A stretch of DNA of 64,000 bases from Arsukibacterium sp. UBA3155 (lineage in GTDB: Bacteria; Pseudomonadota; Gammaproteobacteria; Enterobacterales; Alteromonadaceae): assembly GCA_002364615.1 (NCBI GenBank), contig DEYP01000008.1, positions 40,216 to 104,215 of the forward strand, given 5' to 3'. Each line of letters begins with the position of its first letter. The stretch's first letter is position 1. The notes under the pieces are model-generated. The model made no database searches. It saw nothing but the letters and a program-made list of their open reading frames with translations, and was not told where the DNA came from. Positions 3,066-33,087 of this stretch are shown one piece after another. A program made the position numbers and the translations under genes.

Positions 3066-4244
3066 TTAACGGTATAGCAGATAGGGTTGGCGCTGCTGGG
3101 CAAACGCCTGTAAGTCGGTTTGCCAGCTGGCCCTGATTTGCTGCTCGGTTAACCCTTGCTCAATCTGCTGTCGTAGTTTGCTGGTGCCGGCCAGTTTATC
3201 CATAAAGCCCGGCGAGTTAAAAAAAGTGGCATTGTTGGCTGCAAACAATTGCTGCCAGTTAATTAAGTAGCTTAAATCTAAGCCACCGGCTGCTACCTGG
3301 CGCAAGTCCTGACCCCGACTGATGGTATTTTTTAATGGTGGGTTCATAGCTGCACCGGGCGTCGCTACCGGGGTAAAGTTAAACTCTCCTAAACTAAATT
3401 TATCATAACCAATCGCCTGAAACGGAAACGGGGTGCCGCGGCCAATACTTAACGGCGTCGCCTCAAAAAAGCCCAGCGACGGATACAGCGCGATGGCCTG
3501 ATCATTCGGTAAGTTAGGGCTGGGCGGTACCGGCAAGCTGTAGGCCATATCACGCTGGTAATTCGCGACCGGGATCACTGTCAGCTCCAGCTTATCGGCG
3601 TCAGTTATCCAGCGCTCGCCCTTAATCATTAGTGCCAGCTCGCCCACCGTCATGCCGTGCAGCAGCGGTATCGGGTGCATACCCACAAAAGATTGATAGG
3701 CTAAATCGAGCACCGGCCCATCCAGATAGCGGCCGTTGGGGTTAGGGCGGTCGAGTACCAGCATTGTCACCTTATGCTCAGCGGCTGCCTGCAGCAGATA
3801 GTGCATAGAGCTGATATAGGTGTAATAGCGAACACCGACATCCTGAATGTCGAAAATTACGATGTCCAACGCCTGCATTTGCGCAGCACTGGGTGCCTTG
3901 TTGGCGCCGTACAGCGATAGCAGCGGAATACCGGTTTTGCTGTCGGTACCCGAGCTGACTTTAGCGCCAGCATCATGATCGCCACGAAAGCCATGCTCTG
4001 GCGCAAATACACTGACAATATTCACCTGATTTTCCAGCAACACATCGACCAGGTGCTGCTGGCCTATCCGCGAGGTTTGGTTAACCAGTAAACCCACTCT
4101 TTTATCTTTAAGCAGCGGCAAATAGGCTGCCAGTTGCTCTGCACCAGGGGTGGCGGGGCTTGCTGCAGTTGACGGTTGCTGACTGCGGCTGTCGCCACAG
4201 GCGGCTAAGCAAATAAGCAGCAGTATACTTAACCAGCGTTTCAT
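3066..4244 (-). CDS. namZ: NamZ-like exo-beta-N-acetylmuramidase (DUF1343) lipoprotein
   Basis: Family DUF1343/COG3876. Characterised members from Bacillus subtilis and Tannerella are exo-N-acetylmuramidases that release MurNAc from the non-reducing ends of peptidoglycan fragments. The 392-residue protein begins with a lipoprotein signal (LLICLAAC, Cys16), so it should act in the periplasm or at the surface. Conserved stretches include [41 protein letters not shown] and [11 protein letters not shown]. It is the last gene of a four-gene minus-strand operon (symporter, kinase, MurQ, NamZ) and its start overlaps the MurQ stop by four bases. The context strongly supports MurNAc release. Enzymatic activity of this member is inferred. 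Confidence 0.85.
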
Positions 4245-5161
4245 GCTTTTGCCTCCAGCGCTTTACCAACAAAGCCCTGGCTTTTGACCAGTGCCTGCTG
4301 ACAGCTGGCCAGATCATCACCGGTTAAAATAAGTAAAATGGCCAGCTTAGCGTTCATATCGGCTTGCTGCAGGGCAGCGCTGGCGGTAACACTATTGCAG
4401 TCGGTCGCCTGCATTACAATACGAACCGCCCGCGCCTGCAGTTTCTCATTACTGGCGTGCAAGTCGACCATCAGATTCTGATAAACCTTTCCGCTGCGCA
4501 CCATGGCCGCGGTGCTTAACATATTAAGCAGCATTTTCTGCGCGGTGCCGGCTTTCATCCGGGTAGAGCCAGTGAGGACTTCCGGGCCTACTTCAGCACA
4601 AATTGCAATGTCGGCTGCCTGCAGTATTGAGCCTGTGCTATTGCAGCTGATGGCAACGGTAGTGGCACCCAGTTTGCGGCCATAGTCCAGACCTCCCAGC
4701 ACATAAGGCGTGCGGCCACTGGCAGCGATACCAACCAGTACGTCGTTTGGCCCGAAGTCAATTGCTGTTAATTCTTCCTCTGCCAGTTGCGGACTGTCTT
4801 CGGCACCTTCTACTGCCCGCTGAATGGCGGTGGTACCGCCGGCAATTAAACCAATAACCTGATTTGCCGGCACACTAAAAGTAGGCGGACACTCGGCGGC
4901 GTCTAAAATACCCAGCCGGCCACTGGTGCCGGCGCCCAGATATATTAGCCGGCCGCCACTGGCAAACGCGGCAACGATAGCATCAACGGCCTGTGCCACT
5001 GCCGGTAAGGTTGCCACTAAGGCCGGTGCAACCGTATGGTCGGCTTGGTTAATCAGCCTGACAATTTCCAGACTGTCGAGGGTATCTAAAGCAGTAGACG
5101 CCGGATTGCGAGCTTCGGTGCTCATACTGGCCAGTTGTTGCAGCAATTCAGTTTGACTCAT
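4241..5161 (-). CDS. murQ: N-acetylmuramic acid 6-phosphate etherase MurQ
   Basis: Cytoplasmic lyase that splits the D-lactyl ether of MurNAc-6-phosphate, giving GlcNAc-6-phosphate and lactate. At 306 residues it is full length. The SIS-fold sugar-phosphate site is clear ([17 protein letters not shown], residues 74-90), with ECPPTFS holding the catalytic glutamate at E90 and VEGAEDSP (E118/E121) the second acidic site. [13 protein letters not shown] is the family signature near the C-terminus. It lies between the sugar kinase (33 bases upstream) and NamZ (4-base overlap), so translation of the pair is probably coupled. The kinase next door would supply the phosphorylated substrate. Confidence 0.96.
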
Positions 5162-5194
5162 CAGCCACTCACTTGGTTAGGGTTTAGTAAAACG

Positions 5195-6100
5195 TTATGC
5201 GCCGGAGCCGCCAGAGTTTTTGTTTGGCCCGGCAACGCCTGAAAACTTTGCCAGCTGCTGCGCAGCTAATATCATGCCTCCGTCCAGTGCATCGCCGCGT
5301 GCGGGTTGCAACAAGCGGTTGATCTCAGGGCTCAGCAACGGCTGACTGCTTGCCGCCAGGCCACCGAGCAATACTACTGGCAATGAACGTTCGCCACGGC
5401 AGCAGCAAATAAGTTCAGCAATGGCAATGGCGTGCTGATGCAGCAGTTGCTGCGCCAGTGGGCAATGCTGATGAGCAAACACCAACGGCACCAACGCTGC
5501 AAAGTCACTGGCACCGGCTTGTTTAAGCCAGGGCAATACCGTTTGGATATCGTTGCCGCACTGTGCAGCCAGGGCTTGCGTTAACGGGCTGGATACACCC
5601 TGGTCGCTATCCAGTTGCCACAATAACTGGCGCACGGCCAGCTTGCCCAGCCAGGCACCACCGCCTTCATCACCAATATTAAAGCCCCAGCCACCGGTTT
5701 GCTGCTCAGTGCCGTCCGCGGATAAGCGCATGGCCACCGAGCCGGTACCCAGCGCTACCATAACAACCGGCTCGCCATTATTGGCGCCGTATAGCGAGGT
5801 GCGTGCATCAGTGGTCAATTGCCAGGCGGCGAAATCAAGTTGCAGTTGCTGGCAAAACGCGCGGTAAAGTTGCGGATTACCGGCACCGGCCAAACCAATA
5901 CAGGCCATAACCTGGGCCAGGCTGATGTCTGCTTGCTGACATAACTGCAAACTTAGTTGACGAACCGTGGCGACAGCCAGTTCCAGATCATTGGATAGCT
6001 GAGCCGGCCCGCCGGCAGCCTGCCATTGCTGACCGCTGATTGTGTGTTGCAGTCTGGCCAGGGTTTTACTGCCGCCACCATCTACCGCCAGTAAATACAT
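5195..6100 (-). CDS. BadF/BadG-type N-acetylhexosamine kinase
   Basis: Sugar kinase of the ASKHA fold, BadF/BadG/BcrA family, which includes eukaryotic-type GlcNAc kinase and the MurK kinases that phosphorylate MurNAc and GlcNAc at O6. The 301-residue protein starts with the phosphate-1 loop DGGGSKT (residues 7-13) and has ALGTGSVAM as phosphate-2 and GGWGFNIGDEGGGAW, a family hallmark. No signal peptide is present, so it is cytoplasmic. It sits one base after the symporter stop and just before MurQ, so MurNAc is the most likely substrate, with GlcNAc also possible. The family call is firm and the MurK-like specificity is inferred from context. Confidence 0.85.
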   Translation of the reverse strand: MYLLAVDGGGSKTLARLQHTISGQQWQAAGGPAQLSNDLELAVATVRQLSLQLCQQADISLAQVMACIGLAGAGNPQLYRAFCQQLQLDFAAWQLTTDARTSLYGANNGEPVVMVALGTGSVAMRLSADGTEQQTGGWGFNIGDEGGGAWLGKLAVRQLLWQLDSDQGVSSPLTQALAAQCGNDIQTVLPWLKQAGASDFAALVPLVFAHQHCPLAQQLLHQHAIAIAELICCCRGERSLPVVLLGGLAASSQPLLSPEINRLLQPARGDALDGGMILAAQQLAKFSGVAGPNKNSGGSGA

Positions 6101-7681
6101 TTAATGCTCCGCTTTATTTGCTGTTGTCAAAAGGGCTGCATGTTGTGGTTTACCTGCCATACAAACCAGACAGGCAATCAGGGTGCCCAGACACAATTGC
6201 CAGGTGAAGCCAAGATCCCAACTGGCCAGGGTCGGACTAATTAATTGCAACAGGTAAGGCTGCAGCAATAATGTGACACTGAAACCGGCTAAAAGCGCGG
6301 CAGTCACGCTGCGGCTGTTGCCCCGCTTGCTGAATAATGCGGTAAAAAATACACCCAGCAAGCCGCTATAAGAAAACACCATAACACTCAGCGCAAACGC
6401 CAGTAGTGGCATATCAGAATATTGCTGCCAGTAAAAACACAGCACAGCCATTGCGGATAGTGCCACCGCAGTGAGCAGCATCGCCCATTGACCGGCGTGA
6501 ACGTAATGCCGCTCGCTGGTTAGGGCCTGGCGGCGTTCGCGCCAGGGTTGGTAGATATCGGCAACCAGCACCGAAGCCATCGAATTTAAGCCTGAGGTAA
6601 TGGTAGATAGCGCTGCGGCAATAACACCCACCACGACCAGGCCCCGCAGGCCCGATGGCATTTCATTTAACACATAATACATAAATACGGTAATTTGTTC
6701 ACCGCCAAAGCTACCGCTATAGCTGGCGCTGTTGGCAAACACATCGGGCCGTTGGTAATAAATATACAGCAGTAAACCAATCACAATAAAGACCAGCATC
6801 ACCGGGATCACCAGCAGTGCCGACGATAACAGGGCTTTTGCGCCCCCGGCTGCGGTTTTGCAGGTCAGCACCCGTTGCGTCATGTCTTGATCGAGGCCAA
6901 ATGCAGCAATATTTAACAGCACGAAACCGGTCAGTGCAGACCAGATAGTGAACACCCCGCTGCTACTGAAATCGGGTCTGAAATCAAAGAGTAATAATTT
7001 AGAGCTGCCATCGGCCAGCGGCTCACTTAGCACCTGATATAAGCTGCTCAGGTCCAGTTGCAAGCTATGATATAAATAGCCAAGCACCACCAGTGCAGCC
7101 GTAACATACACTGCGCACTGCAAGGCATCAGTGTAAATAACCGAACGAATACCACCGGCCATGGTGCAAGCAAGCCCTACCACGGCCAGTAAAATAATAG
7201 CGATCACCACACTGCCGGCGTCGATATTACTGAATAAAAGCATGGCAACCGCCAGCGCGGCCATATACAAGCGGGCACCACTGGCAAACACCCGACCAAA
7301 TAAATACATTTTACCAGCGTGATTTTTGGCGGTCGCGTTAAAGCGGCTTTCCAGTAACTCGTATACGGTAGTGACTTTTAACTGGTAATAGCGTGGGATT
7401 AGCCATTTAATCACTACTAAGGTGGCGATGATGGCACCAATGTTGGTTGCAAGGTAGCTAAGGTTGCCGCGAAACCCCATGTCGGGACCGCCCAGAAACG
7501 TCGCTGCCGACTGCGAAGTGGCCAGAACCGATATCGCCACCAGAAACGGCGGCATGGCGTTGCCCCCGAGGAAGTAGTCACTGCTATTATTCGCTTTACG
7601 CCGGTTTACCCAAATAGCCAGGCTGGCCAGCAGCAGAAAATATCCAAAAAATACCGTCCAGTCTAACAACGTCAGTTGCAT
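6101..7681 (-). CDS. Sodium:solute symporter (SSS family), likely amino-sugar importer
   Basis: Inner-membrane symporter of 526 residues with about 13 hydrophobic segments, consistent with the LeuT-fold SSS family. Recognisable parts are LGGNAMPPFLVAISVLATS near TM1-2, FGRVFASGARLYMAALAV, and AALSTITSGLNSMASVLVADIYQP around TM8, which carries the serine/threonine residues typical of the sodium site. It is the first gene of the operon with the kinase, MurQ and NamZ. It therefore probably imports MurNAc (or a GlcNAc-MurNAc mixture) released in the periplasm, doing the job a PTS permease does elsewhere. Its operon is divergent from nagZ. The substrate is an inference from neighbours. Confidence 0.88.
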   Translation of the reverse strand: MQLTLLDWTVFFGYFLLLASLAIWVNRRKANNSSDYFLGGNAMPPFLVAISVLATSQSAATFLGGPDMGFRGNLSYLATNIGAIIATLVVIKWLIPRYYQLKVTTVYELLESRFNATAKNHAGKMYLFGRVFASGARLYMAALAVAMLLFSNIDAGSVVIAIILLAVVGLACTMAGGIRSVIYTDALQCAVYVTAALVVLGYLYHSLQLDLSSLYQVLSEPLADGSSKLLLFDFRPDFSSSGVFTIWSALTGFVLLNIAAFGLDQDMTQRVLTCKTAAGGAKALLSSALLVIPVMLVFIVIGLLLYIYYQRPDVFANSASYSGSFGGEQITVFMYYVLNEMPSGLRGLVVVGVIAAALSTITSGLNSMASVLVADIYQPWRERRQALTSERHYVHAGQWAMLLTAVALSAMAVLCFYWQQYSDMPLLAFALSVMVFSYSGLLGVFFTALFSKRGNSRSVTAALLAGFSVTLLLQPYLLQLISPTLASWDLGFTWQLCLGTLIACLVCMAGKPQHAALLTTANKAEH

Positions 7682-7709
7682 GGCAGAATTCCCGAGGCCT
7701 GATTTTATT

Positions 7710-7722
7710 ATTAACCGTTAAT
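7710..7722. promoter_or_regulatory. Short palindrome in the symporter/nagZ divergent promoter region
   Basis: ATTAAC-C-GTTAAT is an interrupted palindrome with 6-base arms in the 146-base gap between the two divergent sugar-recycling operons. The position suits an operator serving both promoters. At this length and AT content it could be chance, and no regulator is assigned. Confidence 0.25.
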
Positions 7723-7827
7723 TTTTACTTTTGCCCCCTGCCACTACTGGCGGGCACCGTGTTTTTTTGTTTTACTGCAAGCCCATAGCAGCACAATCGT
7801 TACCTTAACATAAGCGGAGTAAACAGT

Positions 7828-9780
7828 GTGTCGGATCAGCAAAATTGGTGGCAACGGTTACGGTGGGCAAGTTGGATGGTTGTGGGCATGCTATCCGGTG
7901 TGCTGGCAATGAGCAGTCAGGCGCAGCCAACGACGGCCCCTGTAACCACAGCCACGGTCCGGCAGATGCTGGGCCAGAAACTGATGCTCGATTTACGCTA
8001 TTACTGCACTGAACCTGTGGCGGCGGGCAAGTGCCGCACGCCGTTAACCAGCCTGCCACCGGAGCTGGCAGACTTAATCAGCCAGTACGATATTGGCGGC
8101 GTCATCTTATTTGCCGAAAACCTTGAGCACAACGAGCAGATTATTACCCTGAACCGCCAATTGCAGCAGGCGGCGGCCCGCTCTGCTTTAAAACACCCGT
8201 TATTTATTGGTATCGATCAGGAAGGGGGCCGGGTTGCCCGCCTACCGCGCCAGCACTCCAGTGCCTTTAGTGGCAATATGGCCATCGGTGCTACCTATCC
8301 GAAACATGGCAATCATTTTGCTGAACTGACGGGCCGTGTCATTGCGGACGAACTGCTGGCCCTTGGTATTAACGTTAATTTTGCGCCAACAGTTGATGTT
8401 AATGTTAATCCGGATAATCCGGTAATTAATGTGCGGGCCTTTGCAGAAGACCCGGCGGTGGTCGCAGAACTGGGCGGTGCCATGACGGCGGCCATGCAGC
8501 AACGTGGTGTTATTGCCGCCTTGAAACATTTTCCGGGCCATGGCGACACCCATATCGACAGTCATTTGGGTTTACCGCGGGTAGCGCATAGCCGCCAGCA
8601 GATTGATCAGGTCGACTTGCTGCCTTTTGCTAAAATTATTAACCAGCATAACCCCGGTATGATTATGACAGCGCATATTCAGTATCCGGCGCTGGATAGC
8701 AGTACTTTTACTGCCAAAGATGGCCAGCAGATGATAAAACCGGCGACGTTATCACGGGCAATTTTACATGACTTGCTGCGCCAGCAACTGGATTATCAGG
8801 GGCTTATTGTTACCGATGCGCTGGATATGGCGGGTATCAGCCATTTTTTCAGCCCGCACGATGCGGTGATCGCTACCTTTGCTGCCGGTGCCGACATTGC
8901 GCTGATGCCGGTAAAGCTGCAAAGCCCGGCTGAACTGGCCGATTTAGCGGCGTTGCTCAACGCGCTGGAGCAAGCGGTGTTGGCGGGCCAGCTGGAGCGT
9001 ACTGAACTGGACGCCTCCTATCAGCGGATTAGTCGTCTCAAACAGCAGTATCCGTTGATGCCAACCGGTTCTGCAAAGACGCAGCTGCTAGCGGCAAATA
9101 AAGTACTGGGCAGTCCGGCCCACCGGCAGGCTGAGCTGGCACTGGCTCAGGCCGCAGTGACCCGTATTTCTGTAGCTGGCATGGCGGAACAAGCCAGTAT
9201 GCCGACGCTTAACGGCAAACAGGTGTTGCTGATTATGCCAGACAATAACAAAGCGGCAGCGCTCAGTCTGGCGTTACAGCAACAAAGCCCGCAACCGCTT
9301 ACTATCAGTAGCATTAGTTTGTTGCAGCAGGACCTGACAGAGGCCGCTGACCTGCTGAAGCGGGCTGAGGTGGTGATTAGTGGCTTTATCACCCCGATGC
9401 CGTCACTTGCTGAAATTGGAGGCATGGATGATATTAGTGCGCTTGGACCACTGGCAGCCCGTTATCAGCGCCAGCAGCAGGACTTTTTGAGTTTATTACG
9501 CCAGATAAAGCAGCAGCAAAAGCCCCATGTTTATATCAGCCTGCGCGCGCCTTATGATGCCGCCACCTATGGGCCCTATGCTGATCTGGCACTGGCCAGC
9601 TACGCCTACAACAGTGAAGATAAAGCTATTGCAGCGGGCGAGCCTGGCGCTACTTATACGGCGTTGGCAAGAGTTTTACTGGGCCAGGTTAAGCCTACCG
9701 GCGTGCTGCCGGTTACCCTGAAGCCGACGTCCACAGCACCTGCCCAGCAAGCCACGGCAGCGTCACAGGGTAGCAAATAA
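7828..9780 (+). CDS. nagZ: Exported NagZ-type beta-N-acetylglucosaminidase (GH3)
   Basis: Glycoside hydrolase family 3 enzyme that removes GlcNAc from GlcNAc-MurNAc chains. The start is GTG at 7828 with GCGGAG upstream. The NagZ histidine loop KHFPGHGDTHIDSH lies at residues 233-246 and the nucleophile is D330 in VTDALDMAG. At 650 residues it is about twice the length of the usual cytoplasmic Gram-negative NagZ and resembles the long two-domain secreted NagZ of Bacillus subtilis. Residues about 14-32 form a hydrophobic export signal ending AMSSQAQ, so the enzyme should act in the periplasm, as a free or anchored protein. It is two bases upstream of the acetyltransferase and divergent from the symporter-MurQ-NamZ operon. 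Confidence 0.9.
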   Translation: MSDQQNWWQRLRWASWMVVGMLSGVLAMSSQAQPTTAPVTTATVRQMLGQKLMLDLRYYCTEPVAAGKCRTPLTSLPPELADLISQYDIGGVILFAENLEHNEQIITLNRQLQQAAARSALKHPLFIGIDQEGGRVARLPRQHSSAFSGNMAIGATYPKHGNHFAELTGRVIADELLALGINVNFAPTVDVNVNPDNPVINVRAFAEDPAVVAELGGAMTAAMQQRGVIAALKHFPGHGDTHIDSHLGLPRVAHSRQQIDQVDLLPFAKIINQHNPGMIMTAHIQYPALDSSTFTAKDGQQMIKPATLSRAILHDLLRQQLDYQGLIVTDALDMAGISHFFSPHDAVIATFAAGADIALMPVKLQSPAELADLAALLNALEQAVLAGQLERTELDASYQRISRLKQQYPLMPTGSAKTQLLAANKVLGSPAHRQAELALAQAAVTRISVAGMAEQASMPTLNGKQVLLIMPDNNKAAALSLALQQQSPQPLTISSISLLQQDLTEAADLLKRAEVVISGFITPMPSLAEIGGMDDISALGPLAARYQRQQQDFLSLLRQIKQQQKPHVYISLRAPYDAATYGPYADLALASYAYNSEDKAIAAGEPGATYTALARVLLGQVKPTGVLPVTLKPTSTAPAQQATAASQGSK

Positions 9781-9782
9781 TA

Positions 9783-10976
9783 ATGTTAAGCGGCTTAAAG
9801 CAGCATTGTGATGCCATATTGGCTAATGTACCCAGGCAACGGCTGCTGGCACTGGATGCCCTGCGGGGGTTAACCATTACCGGGATGATTCTGGTTAATA
9901 ACCCCGGAAGCTGGAACCATGTTTATGGGCCACTGCGCCATGCAAAGTGGCATGGCTGGACGGTGACCGATCTGATTTTTCCTTTTTTTATTGTGATTGT
10001 CGGCATATCACTGCAATTGCGTCTGCAACGGCAAAGCAGTCAGCCCAAAGGGCTGATTATCCGTCATGCAGCCGTTCGCAGTCTGAAATTGTTTGGCCTG
10101 GGGCTGTTTCTGGCACTGTTTTATTATAATTTTGCTGATCCGGCGTACAGCTACATTGAACAAAAACTGCATACGCTGCGCTGGCTTGGCGTGCTGCAAC
10201 GGATTGGCCTGGTCTATTTTGCGACGGTACTGATTGTGCTGTATTGCGGTACCCGTGGCCGGATCCTCTGGTTAGCCGGGCTTTGCGCAGTCTATCTGTT
10301 GGCAATGTTACATCTGCCGTATCAGGATGCCTACGGCAATCAGTTCAGCGGTTTGCTGTTGTTTGGCAATAGCTTTGCCGCCTGGCTCGACCATACCGTG
10401 CTGGGTGCCCGCCATCTGTATTATGGAAGTGCCACCCCGTTTGCGTTCGACCCTGAAGGCTTATGGTCAACGTTGCCGGCGGTGGCCAGTTGTTTAAGTG
10501 GGGTGTTGCTGGCGCAGTGGCTGCAAACCGAGCGCTCTCTGTCCTGGAAAGTGCGGGGGTTATTGCTTGCCGGAGTTATCTCGGTGTGGCTGGCCGAGTT
10601 ATGGCATTTTGCCTTACCCATTAATAAAAGCTTATGGACCCCCAGTTTTGTAGTGCTTAGCAGCGGTTACTGCGCTATCGCTATGGCGGCATGTATCTGG
10701 TTATGTGATATTAAACGCTGGCGGCGCTGGAGCGCGCCTTTTGTGGTGTTTGGCGCCAATGCGATTTTGTTTTTTATGCTGGCAGGCTTAATGGCGCGTG
10801 CGCTGGTAATGATACCGGTCGGCGACGGTTTGCTTAAAGGCTGGCTATTCAGCCGGCTGTTTCAGCCGCTGTTTGGTGATTTAAACGGCTCACTGATCTT
10901 TGCGCTGGTATTTTTAGGATTTTCTTATTTACTAATGCACTGGTGTTACCGGCTCGGCATTATTTTCAAAGTGTGA
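9783..10976 (+). CDS. COG4299/DUF5009 transmembrane acyltransferase (NagX-like)
   Basis: Integral membrane protein of 397 residues with about ten hydrophobic segments. The N-terminal block LALDALRGLTITGMILVN followed by HAKWHGWTVTDLIFPFF is typical of the COG4299 family, related to human heparan-alpha-glucosaminide N-acetyltransferase and called NagX in bacterial GlcNAc regulons. It may acetylate de-acetylated glucosaminyl sugars across the membrane so that they can enter the GlcNAc pathway. Spacing to nagZ is two bases, so they are almost certainly one transcript. The family is clear; the reaction in bacteria is inferred. Confidence 0.82.
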   Translation: MLSGLKQHCDAILANVPRQRLLALDALRGLTITGMILVNNPGSWNHVYGPLRHAKWHGWTVTDLIFPFFIVIVGISLQLRLQRQSSQPKGLIIRHAAVRSLKLFGLGLFLALFYYNFADPAYSYIEQKLHTLRWLGVLQRIGLVYFATVLIVLYCGTRGRILWLAGLCAVYLLAMLHLPYQDAYGNQFSGLLLFGNSFAAWLDHTVLGARHLYYGSATPFAFDPEGLWSTLPAVASCLSGVLLAQWLQTERSLSWKVRGLLLAGVISVWLAELWHFALPINKSLWTPSFVVLSSGYCAIAMAACIWLCDIKRWRRWSAPFVVFGANAILFFMLAGLMARALVMIPVGDGLLKGWLFSRLFQPLFGDLNGSLIFALVFLGFSYLLMHWCYRLGIIFKV

Positions 10977-15924: not shown

Positions 15925-16521
15925 ATGAAAACCGTTGCTCTGCCCGTATGCCCTCCAATGCTTCAACGCCCTTCTGCGCATTTTGATGATAGGCCCCCCG
16001 GCGAGGAAATCAGCTTGCTGGTTATTCACAACATCAGTTTACCCGCCGGAGATTTTGCCACAGCACCACAGCAGGGTTGCCCGGTAGACAGCTTATTTTG
16101 CGGCACCCTTGATTGCAGTCTTCATCCCAGCTTTGTATCGTTGCAGGGGGTAAGGGTGGCGGCTCACTGCGTTATCTGGCGCGATGGCACCATTTTCCAG
16201 TATGTCCCTTTTGCTAACAGAGCCTGGCATGCTGGCAAAAGTGAATTTGCTGGTCGGGCCAACTGTAACGACTTTTCGATAGGGATAGAGTTAGAAGGCT
16301 GCGATAATATGCCGTATACTGAGCAGCAGTACCAAAGCCTGATAGCGCTGAGCCACTATTTACTGGCGCGCTATCAGCAGCTGAAGCCGGAGCGGATTGT
16401 TGGCCATTGTGACATTGCCCCCGGACGCAAAACGGATCCGGGACCGGCGTTTGACTGGTCGTATTATCGGGCCAATATTAAAGCCGTAGTTCAAGCCACA
16501 AGAATGGAGAGCAGGGAATGA
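15925..16521 (+). CDS. ampD: 1,6-anhydro-N-acetylmuramyl-L-alanine amidase AmpD
   Basis: Cytoplasmic zinc amidase that detaches the peptide from anhydro-muropeptides during wall recycling and so keeps AmpR-type beta-lactamase induction low. At 198 residues with no signal peptide it matches AmpD rather than the exported AmpDh enzymes. Zinc ligands are visible at H35 (VIHNIS), H161 and D171 (VGHCDIAPGRKTDPG). The VSLQGVRVAAHCVIWRDG region and FANRAWHAG are also conserved. The stop overlaps the ampE start by four bases, giving the classic ampDE operon divergent from nadC. Confidence 0.96.
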   Translation: MKTVALPVCPPMLQRPSAHFDDRPPGEEISLLVIHNISLPAGDFATAPQQGCPVDSLFCGTLDCSLHPSFVSLQGVRVAAHCVIWRDGTIFQYVPFANRAWHAGKSEFAGRANCNDFSIGIELEGCDNMPYTEQQYQSLIALSHYLLARYQQLKPERIVGHCDIAPGRKTDPGPAFDWSYYRANIKAVVQATRMESRE

Positions 16522-19555: not shown

Positions 19556-19598
19556 AAAAAGGGTCAGAGTGAATAAATTATTCACTCTGACCCTTTTT
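19556..19598. terminator. Perfect inverted repeat acting as a bidirectional terminator, built from GGGTCAGAGTGA repeats
   Basis: A 21-base arm beginning AAAAAGGGTCAGAGTGA is followed after one central base by its exact complement, ending in a T run. It lies between the convergent DUF599 and dolP genes, and each strand offers a stem followed by Ts, so it can terminate both. The arm shares its core with the direct repeats at 51238-51309, which suggests it derives from a REP-like mobile repeat. Confidence 0.8.
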
Positions 19599-26335: not shown

Positions 26336-29335
26336 TTAGAAGTCGATACCGACTGACAACTGAATTCTACGTGGCAGGTAGAAACTACGGGCCTCGCCGT
26401 AATTTGCCTGATAATCGTAGGGGTTCACGTTGTAGCCAGTCTGACGGTCGAACAGGTTAAAGATATCAATCTGAAACTTCATATTCAGTTTGTCAGTTAC
26501 TGCAAAGTTCTGGGTGTAGTTTAAATCTACCTGCCAGTGACTTGATGTTCTGCGACTTCCGGCTTTTTCTGCATAAGCGTTGGCAGCATAGTAAGAACTG
26601 GTTGGTGCATGGCCGTAATACTCAGCTGACCAGGTTTCCCATGCCTGGCCTGATTGATACAGGAAGTACGCACCGACATTGGCATCCCAGTCCAGAGTAT
26701 AGTAACCGAACACTTTGAGTAGGTGCGGCTTGTCTGAGCTTAAGGTGCCATCTTTATTATCCCAGGAGAATTTACCCGGTTCGTCATTATAAAATGATGA
26801 GCCGATAAAGGTATTGGCATCATTAGTGGTGGTGGTATTGTCCTGGTCAAAGTTACCGGTGTAACGGCTCCAGACATAAGACGCATTAAGGTAGGTGCGA
26901 TCGCCAATCCATTCTGCTTCAATGCTGGCTTCCCAGTATTTGGTATAGCCACCGTCTACTTCAGCAATAACATAACTTGAACCGCCAATTTCTGAGCGAT
27001 AGTCCGCAAGCTCAGGAATATACAAGCCTTTGGCGGCAATATCCGCTGGTACCTGGCCATTGCCGTAAGTGCCGGATAAACGGCCGGCGTTGGGCACATC
27101 TTCCCAGAAATTAGAGCCTTTACGATGGCGGATATGGCCACGCAAATATAACTGACTGCTCATGGCTTTGGTGGTACCGATGGTAAATTCATCTATCCGG
27201 CGTGGTTTTAAACCATCGGCAAAAAACTTACCTGAAGATGAACCGCGATAGCGTTCTTCAACAAAGTCACCGTCTTCATCAAAGTAGACATCGGTGATCC
27301 GGTTCAGGGTTGACCTATCCCAGGATGCAGCGCGGGCCAGTGAGTTAGCTTCAGGGTGATAGACGGCAACGTTACCAAATACGGTGTTTTCACCGTCATA
27401 ACGCCAGGTTACGCCTAGCCGCGGCTGAATCATATCGTCCCAGTCCATGGTATACATTTTGTATTTGTTGCCGGGGGCCAGTTCATAACCTGACAGGTTA
27501 TTGGCATTTTCCCGCAAGCCCTGACCGTATAACACATCTTTACTGATCAACACACCGATGTTGTACTCGAAATCGCCCGAGGTAATGGTGTCGTTAATTT
27601 CCAGGTTATAGGTTTTAACTGACGACTCCAATACGTTCAGCTCACTGCCGACACTCGGGTCGGCACCAACGATGGTCGCCTGATAGAATGCGCCAGGTAC
27701 GGTAGTGCTTAAGCCACCAAGGAAACCAATGGTACCCCAGCCATTTGAAACACGACTCAGCTCTTCTTTCAGTTCAGAGTATTTCACGCCAATATGGAAG
27801 TTGTGCCAGGCATTGCCCAGCTCCATTTCCCGGTCCAGTGCAATTTCAACGCTCTGGCGCGAGAACTCGGTAATATCAAACTGGTTATAACCGCCTACGC
27901 GGCCACCACCAGCACGGTTACCACTATCATCGATATAGCCATATTGGTTAATAAGCGTTTGTGCTGCTGCATTAAACGCAGCATTTTCCGGGGTATCTGG
28001 TCTTAAAGTCGGCACACTGAACCTGCCCATCTGGTTCAGGTTATTCAAATCGAGGCTCGAGCCAATCGTTGGGTTAACACTGAGAATGGTATCGGGCGTA
28101 CCAGACGATTTCAGTGAAAAATTATTAATGTTAAAGGTCAGCGCGGTGTCACCATCAATCAGCCAGGAGCCATCGAGGGTAAAGATATCCTGCTCTGCTT
28201 TCTCACCTAATGAACCTTCATTACTATCCAGCGTACCAATAGAGGCGCCTACTACTTCACGATCTGAGCTACGCTGGCTGATATTGAATAGCAAGTCGTC
28301 AGCGGCTGCCCAGGTTAACTTGCCAAAAAACTCATCGCGGGTGCTGTTATAACTTTTGACCGGACCGTACGCGGTTTCTTTATTTACCCGGTCAACTTCC
28401 GGCCGGTAATAAGAACCATAAAAATACAACGCATCTTTGATGACCGGCCCGCCAAAACCAGCGGTTATCCAGCTTTGGTCGAGCTCGTATGGCACATCGC
28501 CGGTAATGTCAGATACCATGCTTTTATCTTGCAGCTTGTATTCTACACTGCCTTTATATTCATCAGTACCAGATTTAGATACAGTGTCGATAGCGAAACC
28601 GCCCGAGCGGTTAAAGCCTACAGCTTTGGCACCACCGCGGTCCATCGATACGTGCAACACGTCGTGAGTTGAGGGTTCTGATGCCAGGTTACCAAATAGT
28701 GGTAGTGATACATCAACACCGTCGAAACCATACTTGTTATCAACCCCTGAACCACCCGCTGCAGGGCCAAGAGTGGCATTCTCGGAATACTGGACGCCTG
28801 GAATTAACTTTAGTAAGTCCCGGTAATCCTGGCCGATGGGTAAACTCTCGATGGCGGTGGCACCGAGCGAGTTAGTTAAGCTGGAATTACCTTCCCGGAC
28901 GATAGTGGTGCCAACAATTTCAATGACTTCAATATTGCTGGTACTACCATCCAGCTGGACATCAACATTTGATGTTTGCTCCAGTCGTACTTCTACCTCT
29001 GTGCGGCGCACAGAACCATCGGCGGCAGTAAAGGTTAACTGGTAACGGCCAGGGATCAATAAAGGTAGCGAATAGCTACCATCATCTTTCGTAACCGCGG
29101 TGCGGGTGCCAGGTAACACATTACTGGTGGCGGTAACGGTAACGCCAGCCAGCGAGGTACCTGTTTGCTCGGTAGTGACTTTACCGCGAATGCCACCCAC
29201 CTGTTGTGCGGCAACAGGGGCACAAGTCAGGATACCTGCCAGTACGACAGCGGTGACAGTAGTGGGGGAGCGAAAAGCGAATTGGGTGGCTTGCGCCAAT
29301 CTGTTTTTTATAAATTTAAGCTCGGTATACTTCAT
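26336..29335 (-). CDS. Oar-like TonB-dependent receptor
   Basis: Outer-membrane receptor of 999 residues with a signal peptide of about 43 residues, a carboxypeptidase-regulatory-like domain (about 47-130; GGIRGKVTTEQTGTSLAGV, DDGSYSLPLLIPGRY), a plug domain (about 145-260) and a long barrel ending in IQLSVGIDF with a terminal Phe. This architecture matches the OmpA-related Oar group of Alteromonadales and Xanthomonadales rather than siderophore receptors. Members are thought to import oligosaccharides or peptides or to help export surface proteins. No TonB box was recognised. It is monocistronic with its own terminator and a 242-base AT-rich upstream region. The substrate is unknown; neighbouring wall-peptide genes make muropeptides one possibility. 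Confidence 0.88.
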   Translation of the reverse strand: MKYTELKFIKNRLAQATQFAFRSPTTVTAVVLAGILTCAPVAAQQVGGIRGKVTTEQTGTSLAGVTVTATSNVLPGTRTAVTKDDGSYSLPLLIPGRYQLTFTAADGSVRRTEVEVRLEQTSNVDVQLDGSTSNIEVIEIVGTTIVREGNSSLTNSLGATAIESLPIGQDYRDLLKLIPGVQYSENATLGPAAGGSGVDNKYGFDGVDVSLPLFGNLASEPSTHDVLHVSMDRGGAKAVGFNRSGGFAIDTVSKSGTDEYKGSVEYKLQDKSMVSDITGDVPYELDQSWITAGFGGPVIKDALYFYGSYYRPEVDRVNKETAYGPVKSYNSTRDEFFGKLTWAAADDLLFNISQRSSDREVVGASIGTLDSNEGSLGEKAEQDIFTLDGSWLIDGDTALTFNINNFSLKSSGTPDTILSVNPTIGSSLDLNNLNQMGRFSVPTLRPDTPENAAFNAAAQTLINQYGYIDDSGNRAGGGRVGGYNQFDITEFSRQSVEIALDREMELGNAWHNFHIGVKYSELKEELSRVSNGWGTIGFLGGLSTTVPGAFYQATIVGADPSVGSELNVLESSVKTYNLEINDTITSGDFEYNIGVLISKDVLYGQGLRENANNLSGYELAPGNKYKMYTMDWDDMIQPRLGVTWRYDGENTVFGNVAVYHPEANSLARAASWDRSTLNRITDVYFDEDGDFVEERYRGSSSGKFFADGLKPRRIDEFTIGTTKAMSSQLYLRGHIRHRKGSNFWEDVPNAGRLSGTYGNGQVPADIAAKGLYIPELADYRSEIGGSSYVIAEVDGGYTKYWEASIEAEWIGDRTYLNASYVWSRYTGNFDQDNTTTTNDANTFIGSSFYNDEPGKFSWDNKDGTLSSDKPHLLKVFGYYTLDWDANVGAYFLYQSGQAWETWSAEYYGHAPTSSYYAANAYAEKAGSRRTSSHWQVDLNYTQNFAVTDKLNMKFQIDIFNLFDRQTGYNVNPYDYQANYGEARSFYLPRRIQLSVGIDF

Positions 29336-29491
29336 CAGTATCTCTCCTGGAGTTGCGTATTGTAGCTGTCCGTAACAGGGTTCTGCTTGCCCTTTTTAAT
29401 ACCCGTTTCTATATAAAGTGCGAGGTGTTTATTTTCTGCACAAAATTAACATAGCAATAATTTTTTGGTTTTGAAAATAATTTATGCTAAA

Positions 29492-29505
29492 AATTATTAA
29501 TAATT
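29492..29505. promoter_or_regulatory. Perfect 14-base AT palindrome upstream of the NlpC/P60 operon
   Basis: AATTATTAATAATT is its own reverse complement and lies 72 bases before the NlpC/P60 start, in the gap shared with the TonB receptor. It could be an operator, but the surrounding region is very AT-rich, so chance is a real alternative. Confidence 0.25.
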
Positions 29506-29577
29506 GGAATATTTGATTCTATTTGCAGCTATTATAAAAGTCAGCCGGCATTTTTCCGCTGCTAAAAAGAGGACAAA

Positions 29578-31005
29578 ATGAGACTAGGTTATTGGTTAGT
29601 ATTAGTTTTATGCTTAGGCAGCAACTGTTTTCAGGAAAATGTTTATGCGAACTCAGATATTCCTATGTTAAGTACCAAACACCTCAGTGCCGATTTCTGG
29701 CTGACAAAAGTAGCCGATGCCGATCAGTTATTGTTAACCGAGACGCAAATCAGTGCCAGAAATAGCGATACCTTTGCCAGGCAGTCAGAAATGACCGAGC
29801 TGGCCAGCCTGGCAGATAGCTTAACTGCAGCTGCCCTTAGAGAGCGTATTGAAAAAGCCAGCGCCACACCAGCGCAGCCGCGTTTTTATGCTGATGGTGC
29901 TGTACTTAGTGCCGAGCAATGGCGGGCCTACCAGCATAATCTGAATACTGATGGGGTGCAGGCAGACAACCCAATCCGCTTTGCCCTGGTGGTAAAGCGC
30001 ACAGACCTGCGCAGCATGCCGACCGAAGATCGGGTGCACAATGAACAAATGGCGCTGGATTTAGACCGCTTTCAGGAAACGGCGCTGTTTCCGGGGGAAG
30101 CGATAGCGGTGCTGCACCGCAGCCGGGATAATAATTGGCTGCTGGTACAAAATTATCATTATACCGGTTGGGTGCAGGCAAAGAATGTTGCACTGGGTCA
30201 CCGCCAGCAAGTTCTGGAGTACGCTAAACAGCAACCGTTTCTGGTGGTTACCGGTGCCAGGGTTGTTACCAGTTTTACCCCTGAGATGCCGGCGATATCT
30301 CAGTTGCTGCTGGATATGGGCACCCGCTTACCTTTGTTAAGCACAGAAGACACTGGCCATAATGTGCACGGTCAGAACCCTCATGCCAGTTATATTGTCA
30401 AATTACCACTCAGAACGCCTGATGGTAGCCTGGACTTTACGCCGGCCCTTATTGCCCGTCAGCAAGATGTCAGTGAGGGGTATTTACCCTACACCGCCGC
30501 TAATATTCTGCAGCAGGCTTTTAAGTTTCTGGGCGATCGCTATGGCTGGGGTCATGATTATGACAGTCGCGACTGCACCGGTTTTATTATTGAAATTTAC
30601 CGCAGTTTTGGCTTGCTGATGCCAAGAAACTCCGGCCAGCAAGGCGAGGGGAGCTATGGCAGGAACGTTCGTTTTAGCAGCCAAAGCAGTCACGCAGATA
30701 AACTGGCGGCAATCCGTTCTGCGCAGCCAGGCGACTTAATTTACCGGCCGGGCCACGTGATGTTGTATTTGGGCGAAGACGCTGGTGAGCCTTTTGTGAT
30801 CCATTCCGTGCATGATCTGGCGTACTTTACTTTTAACGATGTTGCTGACGCTGATTCTAATGCGAAAAGCAAGGCTGCAGTAACTCAACCTGCGTTGTAC
30901 CGGGGCATTTTAAATGGGGTGGCGGTAACACCGTTAACCCCGCTGCAGCTGACGACTGACAGCAGTTATCTGGATAAAATATACGCTATTAAATCATTGC
31001 GTTAA
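29578..31005 (+). CDS. Exported SH3 / NlpC-P60 cell-wall peptidase
   Basis: 475-residue cysteine peptidase expected to cut gamma-D-Glu to diamino-acid bonds in murein peptides, like B. subtilis YkfC. The start follows AGAGGACAAA. A signal peptide covers about 1-24. A bacterial SH3 domain lies at about 130-205 (RTDLRSMPTE, LLVQNYHYTGWVQAKNV). The NlpC/P60 domain occupies about 300-440, with the catalytic cysteine in SRDCTGFIIE and histidines in PGHVMLYLGE and FVIHSVHD. It is 11 bases upstream of the dipeptide epimerase, which would act on the L-Ala-D-Glu product. A dedicated importer for that product is not in the window. Confidence 0.9.
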   Translation: MRLGYWLVLVLCLGSNCFQENVYANSDIPMLSTKHLSADFWLTKVADADQLLLTETQISARNSDTFARQSEMTELASLADSLTAAALRERIEKASATPAQPRFYADGAVLSAEQWRAYQHNLNTDGVQADNPIRFALVVKRTDLRSMPTEDRVHNEQMALDLDRFQETALFPGEAIAVLHRSRDNNWLLVQNYHYTGWVQAKNVALGHRQQVLEYAKQQPFLVVTGARVVTSFTPEMPAISQLLLDMGTRLPLLSTEDTGHNVHGQNPHASYIVKLPLRTPDGSLDFTPALIARQQDVSEGYLPYTAANILQQAFKFLGDRYGWGHDYDSRDCTGFIIEIYRSFGLLMPRNSGQQGEGSYGRNVRFSSQSSHADKLAAIRSAQPGDLIYRPGHVMLYLGEDAGEPFVIHSVHDLAYFTFNDVADADSNAKSKAAVTQPALYRGILNGVAVTPLTPLQLTTDSSYLDKIYAIKSLR

Positions 31006-31016
31006 CCGAGGCACCT

Positions 31017-32111
31017 ATGAAAATTACCGATATCCGGCTGGGCATGCTTACTATACCACTGAAGACACCGTTTAAAACGGCGCTGCGCACCGTACAGCAA
31101 ATTGAAGACGTGGTAGTCATGATTGAAACCGATACCGGCCATATTGGCTATGGTTCAGCCCCTGCCACCGCAGTGATTACCGGAGACATTCATGGCTCAA
31201 TTATCGATGCCATTAAAAGTGTGTTAAAGCCTAAGCTGGTTGGGCAACACATTGCCGATTTAAACCATATTATCCGCCTGATCCAGGGCGCGATAATGAA
31301 AAATTACAGCGCGAAAGCGGCGGTAGAAATGGCAGTATATGATTTGTTTGCCCAACTGTATCAGGCACCGTTATATAAAATACTGGGCGGTGGCGTGCCG
31401 AAAATAACCACTGACCTTACCATCAGTGTTGATTACATCGACAAAATGGTTGCCGACTCGTTAAGTGCCATTGACCGTGGCTTTGAAACCCTGAAAGTGA
31501 AAGTAGGCAAAGACATCGGGGTAGATATTGAGCGGGTTAAAGCCATCTACGCCGCCGTGGCCGGCAAAGCGCTGATCCGACTGGATGCCAATCAGGGCTG
31601 GACCGCCAAAGAGGCGGTTTATGCCCTGCGCAAACTGGAAGATGCCGGGGTACGGCTGGAGCTGGTTGAGCAGCCGGTAAAAGCTTACGATTTAGAAGGC
31701 TTAAAATACATTACCGAACGGGTGCATACCCCGGTGATGGCCGATGAAAGTAGTTTTGGTCCGCGCGAAGTGATTGAACTGATTAAAATGCGCGCCGCCG
31801 ATATTATTAATATTAAACTGATGAAAACCGGCGGTATTGCCAACGCCATCAAAATTGCAGACATTTGCTCGTTTTATGATATGCAGTGCATGATAGGCTG
31901 CATGCTGGAAGGCAGTATCAGTGTGGCGGCAGCGGTACACGTGGCGGTGGCTAAATCAGATGTAATCACCAAAATAGACCTGGATGGTCCATCACTGTGT
32001 GCCTTTGATCCGGTGCGCAGCAGTGTCAATTTTAATGACGCCGACATTACCATTGGTAATGCGCCAGGCTTAGGTATTACGGCTATTGAAGGTCTGAAAA
32101 TGCTGCCCTGA
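31017..32111 (+). CDS. L-Ala-D/L-Glu dipeptide epimerase
   Basis: Enolase-superfamily enzyme of 364 residues that interconverts L-Ala-D-Glu and L-Ala-L-Glu so that murein dipeptide can be hydrolysed as a nutrient (YcjG/YkfB type). The base lysine motif K-x-K is in TLKVKVGKD (about 160-168). Metal ligands are in RLDANQGW, LVEQPV and ADESSF, and the second lysine in INIKLMKTGG. It is cytoplasmic with no signal. Position right after an NlpC/P60 peptidase and near a MurR-type regulator agrees with muropeptide catabolism. Specificity within the superfamily is inferred from motifs and context. Confidence 0.9.
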   Translation: MKITDIRLGMLTIPLKTPFKTALRTVQQIEDVVVMIETDTGHIGYGSAPATAVITGDIHGSIIDAIKSVLKPKLVGQHIADLNHIIRLIQGAIMKNYSAKAAVEMAVYDLFAQLYQAPLYKILGGGVPKITTDLTISVDYIDKMVADSLSAIDRGFETLKVKVGKDIGVDIERVKAIYAAVAGKALIRLDANQGWTAKEAVYALRKLEDAGVRLELVEQPVKAYDLEGLKYITERVHTPVMADESSFGPREVIELIKMRAADIINIKLMKTGGIANAIKIADICSFYDMQCMIGCMLEGSISVAAAVHVAVAKSDVITKIDLDGPSLCAFDPVRSSVNFNDADITIGNAPGLGITAIEGLKMLP

Positions 32112-32155
32112 ACACCGGTTGTGATGGCAGTGACAATTACATTAGTAAGCGTTGT

Positions 32156-33001
32156 TCAAGGTTTTTCCAGTAACCCCAGCAGCTCTGTGCTTTCTGTCAG
32201 GGCTAAATCATTGTTCTGCCAGTGGCAAAGCTGCAAATACAGCATATGACATAAATGCTGCTGCGCTAACTGGGTTAGCAGTGGGTTTAAACGAATGTCT
32301 TCCTCTGCGCTGAGGGTAAATAACGTAATATCGGCTGCCAGGCTCTGGGCATTGGTTTTATAGCTGGTTAACGAGATAATTTTCAGCTGGCGGCTTTTGG
32401 CATAGTGCTCCAGTTTCAGCAAATCATTGTTCTGGCCAGAATCGGATATCAGTAACAGCACGCTGGTATCGGTTAAACTGCGGGCCAGTTGCAGGGCTAA
32501 TGCCGGGTCGGCGTGATGTAGCGCCAGCTTACCCAACTGCAATAACCGGAACTGCATATCAGCTACCACAATCGCCGACTTGGCAAAACCGGCCAGCAGT
32601 ATTTTGTCGGCACTTTGTAATAAACGGGCCGCCTGCAACAGGGTTTTTTCGTCATTAATAGTTAATAAGGTGCGCAGGTGTTGTTGCAGGCTAAATTGTA
32701 ATTGCTCGCCAATGCCCAGTAAGCTGCCATCCTCATTGTTTTTATCTGCCTGATCCCGGTTCAGGGTGCTGGCGGTAACCACAGCTTCATTAATGGCCAG
32801 TTTAAGATCGGGGTAGCCTTTGTAACCCAGCTTCTGACAAAACTTGACCACACTGGATTGACTGATCCCAACCGCATCGGCCAGCTGCTGCGAAGAGTAG
32901 TCGCGCAGCATATGGGCATTATCCAGAATAAACTCGGCCAGCTTGCGCTCAATAACCGACATCTGGTCAAGCATGCCACGGATCTTCAGTAAACTCAGCA
33001 T
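32156..33001 (-). CDS. MurR/RpiR family transcriptional regulator
   Basis: 281-residue regulator with an N-terminal RpiR helix-turn-helix (about 1-75; SQQLADAVGISQSSVVKFCQ) and a C-terminal SIS domain (about 125-260) that binds phosphosugars. The E. coli relative MurR represses MurNAc catabolism genes and responds to MurNAc-6-phosphate. Here it is convergent with the epimerase and lies 24 kb from murQ, so it may control the epimerase operon, the sugar operons, or both. An AT-rich palindrome at 33075-33087 in its upstream region might be an autoregulatory site. Target genes are inferred. Confidence 0.88.
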   Translation of the reverse strand: MLSLLKIRGMLDQMSVIERKLAEFILDNAHMLRDYSSQQLADAVGISQSSVVKFCQKLGYKGYPDLKLAINEAVVTASTLNRDQADKNNEDGSLLGIGEQLQFSLQQHLRTLLTINDEKTLLQAARLLQSADKILLAGFAKSAIVVADMQFRLLQLGKLALHHADPALALQLARSLTDTSVLLLISDSGQNNDLLKLEHYAKSRQLKIISLTSYKTNAQSLAADITLFTLSAEEDIRLNPLLTQLAQQHLCHMLYLQLCHWQNNDLALTESTELLGLLEKP

Positions 33002-33074: not shown

Positions 33075-33087
33075 GAATAATTTATTC
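33075..33087. promoter_or_regulatory. Palindrome upstream of the MurR/RpiR gene
   Basis: GAATAA-T-TTATTC has 6-base arms about 75 bases before the start of the regulator gene. Autoregulation by a dimeric regulator is possible, but AT-rich composition weakens the case. Confidence 0.3.

Follow-up and report, generated by a model that had tools for sequence, protein, structure and literature searches.

The closest described counterparts of the genes considered here come from two bacteria. In Bacillus subtilis the cluster murQ-murR-murP-amiE-nagZ-ybbC is reported to salvage wall sugars with a secreted two-domain NagZ, YbbC, MurQ and a MurR-type regulator (PMC5061867), and in Tannerella forsythia the operon ampG-ybbC-murT-murK-murQ is reported to bring together, as a single transcription unit, YbbC, a transporter independent of the phosphotransferase system (PTS), a kinase for N-acetylmuramic acid (MurNAc) and MurQ (PMC5388701, PMC5790795). 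Here we describe a comparable locus in Arsukibacterium sp. UBA3155, within a 64 kb stretch of contig DEYP01000008.1 (positions 40,216 to 104,215, hereafter the window) from a genome of 3.89 Mb, 30 contigs and 99.79% completeness. At 3066-10976 the window holds six genes in two divergent operons, one for an SSF symporter, a kinase, MurQ and a NamZ-like protein, the other for an exported NagZ and a NagX-like protein; a preliminary description of this DNA gave the same coordinates and strands, and our domain searches confirm the arrangement. Judged from homology and gene context, we put the probability at roughly 0.78 that these genes form one half of a peptidoglycan-utilisation system with a route through MurNAc and N-acetylglucosamine (GlcNAc).

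The NamZ family has matches in the B. subtilis genome that served as a control, and we take YbbC of that species to be NamZ. The preliminary description had pointed to the grouping of namZ, nagZ and murQ in B. subtilis, rightly (PMC5061867), and the T. forsythia parallel is equally close. Uptake in B. subtilis relies on a PTS (MurP), whereas here there is a symporter and an ATP-type kinase; the present locus also differs in belonging to a Gram-negative organism, in the NlpC/P60, epimerase and receptor-like genes linked to it in relatives, and in the presence of AmpG and AnmK in the same genome. The T. forsythia operon includes ampG and the window operon does not, while the present set takes in NagZ and an RpiR regulator. 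The family of T. forsythia MurT (TfMurT) is disputed, one source calling it a sodium symporter (PMC5790795) and another a distant relative of NagX (PMC9007349). The route we propose thus joins B. subtilis-like secreted enzymes to T. forsythia-like PTS-free uptake and kinase, and is known in kind from both. AmpG, AmpD, AnmK and MurQ are common to this genome and E. coli-type recycling, but the short cytoplasmic NagZ of the latter was not found here. A NagZ that exists only in exported form has been described before, in Rhodothermus marinus: it too is Gram-negative, with a NagZ (RmNag3) described as having a signal peptide and, according to the same source, no intracellular orthologue, although it is said there to be without AmpG and AmpD (PMC6987092), both of which this genome has. 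The retrieved passages of PMC9602339, PMC13046382 and PMC5507952 concern only general recycling, use of diaminopimelic acid and MurQ-based prediction of MurNAc use. Among the listings, abstracts and passages covered by our literature search, no paper treats this locus or dedicated peptidoglycan uptake loci in Alteromonadales.

The first module

The six genes and the region between the operons are as follows, export calls (signal-like N-terminus, lipobox) resting on a simple hydropathy and lipobox rule rather than a dedicated predictor.

3066..4244, minus strand: NamZ-like exo-beta-N-acetylmuramidase, predicted lipoprotein (PF07075 and PF20732 over cut-off; lipobox)
4241..5161, minus strand: MurQ, MurNAc-6-phosphate etherase (TIGR00274, 400.7 against a cut-off of 302)
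5195..6100, minus strand: BadF-type sugar kinase, probable MurNAc (perhaps MurNAc/GlcNAc) kinase (PF01869)
6101..7681, minus strand: sodium:solute symporter, probable importer of the freed sugars (PF00474, 106.6 bits, cut-off 22.8)
7682..7827: divergent promoter region (no RpiR-type palindrome, best matrix score -1.8; the congeners L005, L114 and L117 have the palindrome core)
7828..9780, plus strand: exported two-domain NagZ of the Bacillus type, 650 amino acids (3bmx and 4gyj matches; signal-like N-terminus)
9783..10976, plus strand: NagX/COG4299-like membrane protein, acetyltransferase or transporter (NagX_SO_3504, 161.5 bits)

Packing is tight: the NamZ and MurQ genes overlap by 4 bases, those of the kinase and symporter abut, and 2 bases separate NagZ from the NagX-like gene. 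The NamZ protein, the sole NamZ match in the genome, scores 265.6 bits with NamZ_N (cut-off 26.9) and 93 with NamZ_C (cut-off 25), has 4jja as its best solved relative (E 1.2e-116, query 32-392) and carries the lipobox LAAC with Cys16; its predicted activity is the release of MurNAc from non-reducing ends. MurQ is likewise the only protein over its cut-off genome-wide, and the kinase (BcrAD_BadFG, 64.5 bits, cut-off 31.5) is the genome's only PF01869 match. The nearest solved relative of the symporter is 5nv9, a putative sodium:solute symporter (3.9e-37).

NagZ scores 287.4 bits with Glyco_hydro_3 (cut-off 27) and matches 3bmx and 4gyj (YbbD) over nearly its full length with E about 1e-104; against B. 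subtilis 3bmx (E 1.5e-104) query residues 37-639 align with 37-624, covering both domains. The GDT-x-x-DSH and VTDAL stretches, which we take to hold the catalytic residues, are aligned between the window protein and B. subtilis NagZ/YbbD, and the E. coli-type model PRK05337 gives 200.1-202.4 bits, under its cut-off of 207. A hydrophobic stretch lies within the first 60 residues in 32 of the 33 NagZ-group frames longer than 600 amino acids (12 residues averaging 1.8 or more in hydropathy, a threshold set on inspection), and many NagZ relatives share a cysteine pair near the N-terminus, as read from printed N-termini, which fits an exported protein. For the last gene, the acetyltransferase label of the preliminary description is uncertain: a distant relation to NagX holds, but no Pfam family matched and the only NCBIfam match, NagX_SO_3504, is far under its cut-off of 480.

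To place the module among its relatives we compared 44 NamZ loci, comprising the window, 34 of 35 stretches fetched from genomes of the order and nine from named relatives; L144 was dropped, L003 and L004 were excluded as near copies of the window cluster, and no pair of NamZ proteins across the 44 is 95% or more identical. At 64 kb, against at most 21 kb for the other stretches, the window is favoured in gene counts. By NamZ its nearest named relatives are three Arsukibacterium records (82-85% identical) and then Rheinheimera maricola (76%). Among the 79 NamZ loci in the named collection, four (L002-L005) show the same six genes in the same order, as do two congeners (L114, L117) and, apart from a fusion of kinase and MurQ, L116 of the same family; because this order recurs in relatives the module is conserved and not a chance assembly. 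Kinase and MurQ, in that order, share one open frame of 615-626 amino acids in three of the 44 loci (L116, L131, L136), and such a fusion argues well, if indirectly, for the kinase as the supplier of MurQ's substrate.

Two genes flank the module. An M14-type peptidase gene at 3-1487, with a weak MpaA match below cut-off, adjoins it on one side, its family being present in eight of the 44 loci; after the NagX-like gene comes a GGDEF/EAL protein with a solute-binding domain (11080-13662), whose place is kept in L002-L005. Carriage of the whole operon by Bacteroidota was considered and rejected, as 68 of their NamZ loci (L011-L080 minus L074 and L075) gave no MurQ or kinase match. Their NamZ proteins are 43-55% identical to that of the window, and a symporter, distant (25%), stands beside NamZ in L025 and L033 only. 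Because several of these stretches end early at contig ends, transfer of the operon from Bacteroidota is neither shown nor excluded.

A second cluster, joined to the first in some relatives

The module is larger than the preliminary description had it: a second cluster at 26336-33001, separate from the first in the window, makes up a single locus with it in some relatives.

26336..29335, minus strand: large outer-membrane receptor-like protein, Oar-like (PF13620, carboxypeptidase-regulatory-like domain)
29472..29522: two RpiR-type operator candidates between the receptor and NlpC genes (matrix 14.3 and 19.5; 2-mismatch matches at 29475 and 29507)
29578..31005, plus strand: exported SH3/NlpC-P60 peptidase, probable gamma-D-Glu-diamino-acid endopeptidase (SH3_6 and NLPC_P60; signal-like N-terminus)
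31017..32111, plus strand: probable L-Ala-D/L-Glu epimerase (nearest solved protein 1jpm, an L-Ala-D/L-Glu epimerase, 8.7e-98)
32156..33001, minus strand: MurR/RpiR-family regulator (HTH_6 and SIS domains)
33075..33087: perfect match to the GAATAATTTATTC palindrome, preceding the regulator gene by 74 bases and conserved in L185 and L186

In L120 and L133 the two clusters form a single run of receptor, NlpC, epimerase, RpiR, NamZ, MurQ, kinase, symporter and NagZ. Two congeners keep the order of the second half beside mraZ; L185 includes the receptor, whereas the L186 stretch has NlpC, epimerase and RpiR but gave no match for the receptor. In the window, too, the cluster sits just upstream of mraZ/dcw. 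The NlpC/P60 protein matches 3m1u, a putative gamma-D-glutamyl-L-diamino acid endopeptidase (1e-22), while the epimerase scores 245.4 bits with NCBIfam NF041118, under the cut-off of 500, and the regulator 97.7 bits with the E. coli MurR model PRK15482, under the cut-off of 408. The receptor-like protein may form a TonB-dependent barrel; no Pfam TonB match was obtained for it.

Linkage of the epimerase to NamZ was also visible across 48 genomes, 35 with NamZ and 13 without (22 and 13 within the family, all of these 99-100% complete). The 13 are of the same family as the window and not a random draw from the 358 negatives, and G152, the genome of L144, was left out with a NamZ match below cut-off. 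Orthologues of the epimerase, taken at 46% identity or more, were found in 14 of the 35 NamZ-positive genomes and in none of the 13 NamZ-negative ones, and in nine of the 14 genomes having both, the epimerase lies within 30 kb of NamZ on one contig.

Counting the window, the MurQ/kinase group is present in 35 of the 44 stretches, NagZ in 33, and symporter and RpiR relatives in 26 each, followed by a Na+/H+-antiporter-family protein (17), an amidase group that includes the window AmpD (14) and alanine racemase (11); NlpC/P60, epimerase and NagX-like proteins each occur in eight, as does the M14 peptidase, and the receptor in seven. A FAD/iron-sulphur dehydrogenase of the GlcD/YdiJ kind, found in 10 loci and adjoining RpiR at L113:12203-15043, could oxidise the D-lactate made by MurQ. 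Further observations from these loci include a protein joining Amidase_2, peptidoglycan-binding and beta-lactamase-family domains (L121:2-2200), of a family that recurs in NamZ loci; a VanX/DdpX-like D-Ala-D-Ala dipeptidase (L002:18980-19735), of a family found in five of the 44 and under curated cut-offs; and a murQ in pieces with a stop in the draft genome G384 (L133:8993-9726), which could be an assembly error.

A candidate operator at module promoters

When upstream regions were compared within the genus, GAATAATTTATTC appeared ahead of the RpiR gene, and in L005, L114 and L117 the core of the palindrome precedes the symporter/NagZ pair. The 44 loci hold 42 palindrome sites with at most one mismatch, of which 33 fall between -300 and +30 relative to module genes (p 8e-29), a zone that takes up 69,015 of 878,285 bases; 29 control palindromes of equal half-site composition place at most three sites there. 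When the four discovery loci are removed, 29 of 35 sites still fall in the zone (p 1.5e-26, 40 loci). An in-zone palindrome is found in 18 of the 40 non-discovery loci and not in the other 22. We conclude that GAATAATTTATTC marks promoters of module genes in many genomes of the order; the protein that binds it is probably the RpiR regulator, acting with an effector.

Within the window, matches with at most two mismatches number 7 against 1.70 expected, a count reached by one of 100 shuffles, with two palindromes counted on both strands. A matrix built from 25 palindrome sites, all outside the window, scores four window sites above 14: 19568 (20.8), 29504 (19.5), 33072 before RpiR (17.2) and 29472 (14.3). 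Three of 20 shuffled windows held a site scoring at least 15, the highest 17.7, and it is the placement of the window palindromes, not their score, that carries weight.

Classical recycling genes and the two kinds of NagZ

The window also encodes one enzyme of classical recycling:

15925..16521, plus strand: AmpD, cytoplasmic anhydro-muropeptide amidase (PRK11789, 249.1 against a cut-off of 143)

By the simple rule the AmpD N-terminus has neither an evident signal peptide nor a lipobox; AmpE we assign from gene place. The preliminary description had seen in the module a second, parallel route next to ampDE and had named ampG, anmK and a short nagZ as the genes by which coexistence could be judged. 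Profile searches of the genome found AmpG (523 bits), AnmK (486 bits) and NagA (282 bits, over cut-off), so that AmpG, AmpD and AnmK do coexist with the module. No short NagZ (a frame of less than 450 amino acids scoring above 207 bits with NCBIfam PRK05337) was found. The genome's two glycoside hydrolase family 3 (GH3) proteins are the window NagZ and a frame of 941 amino acids that does not resemble NagZ, scoring 35.3 bits against its model, and a hidden cytoplasmic NagZ was rejected on this ground and because no GH20 was found, GH84 and other families lying outside the search. With the only MurQ and the only NagZ in the module, the two routes share parts, or the old route has been altered; homology and context speak for the scavenging route (export of NamZ and NagZ, a symporter, a kinase fused to MurQ in three relatives, MurQ, and NagA elsewhere in the genome), but not for a separate, parallel one.

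Short NagZ is absent from 16 of the 48 genomes, 15 of the 35 with NamZ and one of the 13 without (within the family, nine of 22 and one of 13). AnmK is present in all nine of these NamZ-positive family genomes and AmpG is over cut-off in eight, G121 having an AmpG match of only 152 bits. Long NagZ is found in 15 of the 16, the exception being G358 (92% complete, 380 contigs), an association with Fisher p 0.018 uncorrected for kinship, while 19 of the 48 genomes hold both forms. In seven relatives examined for the neighbours of short nagZ, a gene we take to be TetR-like stands beside it in five, with a presumed FadE-like gene between in G172 and G348; this genome and two congeners have the TetR-FadE-like pair with no nagZ following. 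It seems, then, that a cytoplasmic NagZ kept by many relatives has been lost. For E. coli, AmpG is reported to require a disaccharide, GlcNAc-anhMurNAc (PMC7670621), and under that rule NagZ has to separate the two sugars afterwards; this leaves three possibilities here, a different AmpG, a little-used AmpG branch, or some other enzyme that fills in.

Proposed route and alternative explanations

We propose an extracytoplasmic stage in which the NlpC/P60 protein and other peptidases would trim wall fragments, and NagZ would take GlcNAc, and NamZ MurNAc, off non-reducing ends. The symporter would bring in the free sugar or sugars, the BadF-type kinase would yield MurNAc-6-P and probably also GlcNAc-6-P, and MurQ would convert MurNAc-6-P to GlcNAc-6-P and D-lactate, NagA acting thereafter; the epimerase would convert the peptide pieces. 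In many genomes of the order a MurR/RpiR-type repressor at GAATAATTTATTC would control the system, here with candidate sites preceding the second cluster only, and its effector may be MurNAc-6-P, by analogy with E. coli MurR (PMC5061867). The activities, substrates and outer-membrane step are predictions from sequence.

Several observations weigh against this proposal. The gene set is not fixed: a kinase at least 37% identical is present in only 14 of the 44 stretches, and 18 are without a symporter relative and 18 without an RpiR relative. Two congeners carry the two clusters on separate contigs. A palindrome stands at a module gene in only 22 of the 44 stretches; the first operon pair of the window has none by matrix or alignment, and alignment shows none at the L002-L004 symporter/NagZ promoters. 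Sites 33072 and 29472 are not significant by score alone, because shuffled windows reach 17.7, and the top matrix site (19568-19586) was rejected as an operator, being an inverted repeat between two convergent genes and hence probably a terminator. Finally, the kinase pocket reads G-G-W (positions counted by hand) for S133-P134-L135 of TfMurK, so that MurNAc specificity is unreadable from its sequence; the MurNAc/GlcNAc kinase 8zo3 also has G-G-W. The equivalent of TfMurK T94 gave nothing firm either, being T in the window and T, N and S in the fused orthologues.

Could the module serve mainly for uptake of GlcNAc (and glucosamine), with the NagX-like protein acetylating glucosamine and MurNAc a side product? 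The kinase is nearest among solved proteins to 1zc6, a probable GlcNAc kinase (4.6e-36), ahead of 8zo3 (4.8e-12), and its sole NCBIfam match is NagK_SO3507 (118.5 bits); NagX has been proposed as a glucosamine acetyltransferase (PMC9007349); and as no other BadF-family kinase was found in the genome, ROK-family kinases lying outside the search, the window kinase may have to serve GlcNAc. Yet the NagK model is missed by as wide a margin (cut-off 370) as that of NagX, the operon includes MurQ and NamZ, MurQ and kinase are fused in three relatives, and the genome is without GH20, which together make this explanation improbable. Less easily set aside, though in our view still unlikely, is that the exported NagZ and NamZ work on the cell's own periplasmic turnover products in place of a cytoplasmic NagZ, foreign walls being secondary. 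That AmpG, AmpD and AnmK are kept where short NagZ was not found, in this genome and two congeners, speaks for such self-recycling, as do the TetR-FadE-like pair in these three genomes, without the nagZ that follows it in two relatives, and the long NagZ of nearly all genomes lacking the short one. However, an exported NagZ would destroy the very disaccharide that E. coli AmpG is reported to need, 19 of the 48 genomes have both forms, and the wider locus, with its regulator, receptor-like protein and peptidases, resembles a nutrient system. We favour peptidoglycan utilisation as the role of the module.

Implications for the genus and the order

Peptidoglycan has been proposed as a significant deep-sea nutrient (PMC11044484), and the window provides a complete candidate locus for its use, with its own operator, that a single DNA motif suffices to locate and that lends itself to tests in environmental laboratory strains. 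Genomes that retain AmpG but seem to have lost the cytoplasmic NagZ provide a natural experiment on the true substrate requirement of AmpG. Tentatively, and against somewhat unfavourable odds, we suggest that the genus and several related lineages, although AmpG, AmpD and AnmK persist in them, retain no NagZ but the exported one of a wall-eating locus, so that AmpG takes anhydro-muropeptides free of GlcNAc, or recycling has merged with feeding through periplasmic release, symporter, kinase and MurQ. If NagZ has indeed been relocated outside the cytoplasm, then either AmpG breaks the E. coli rule in these bacteria, or feeding on walls and recycling of their own have become one route centred on MurQ.

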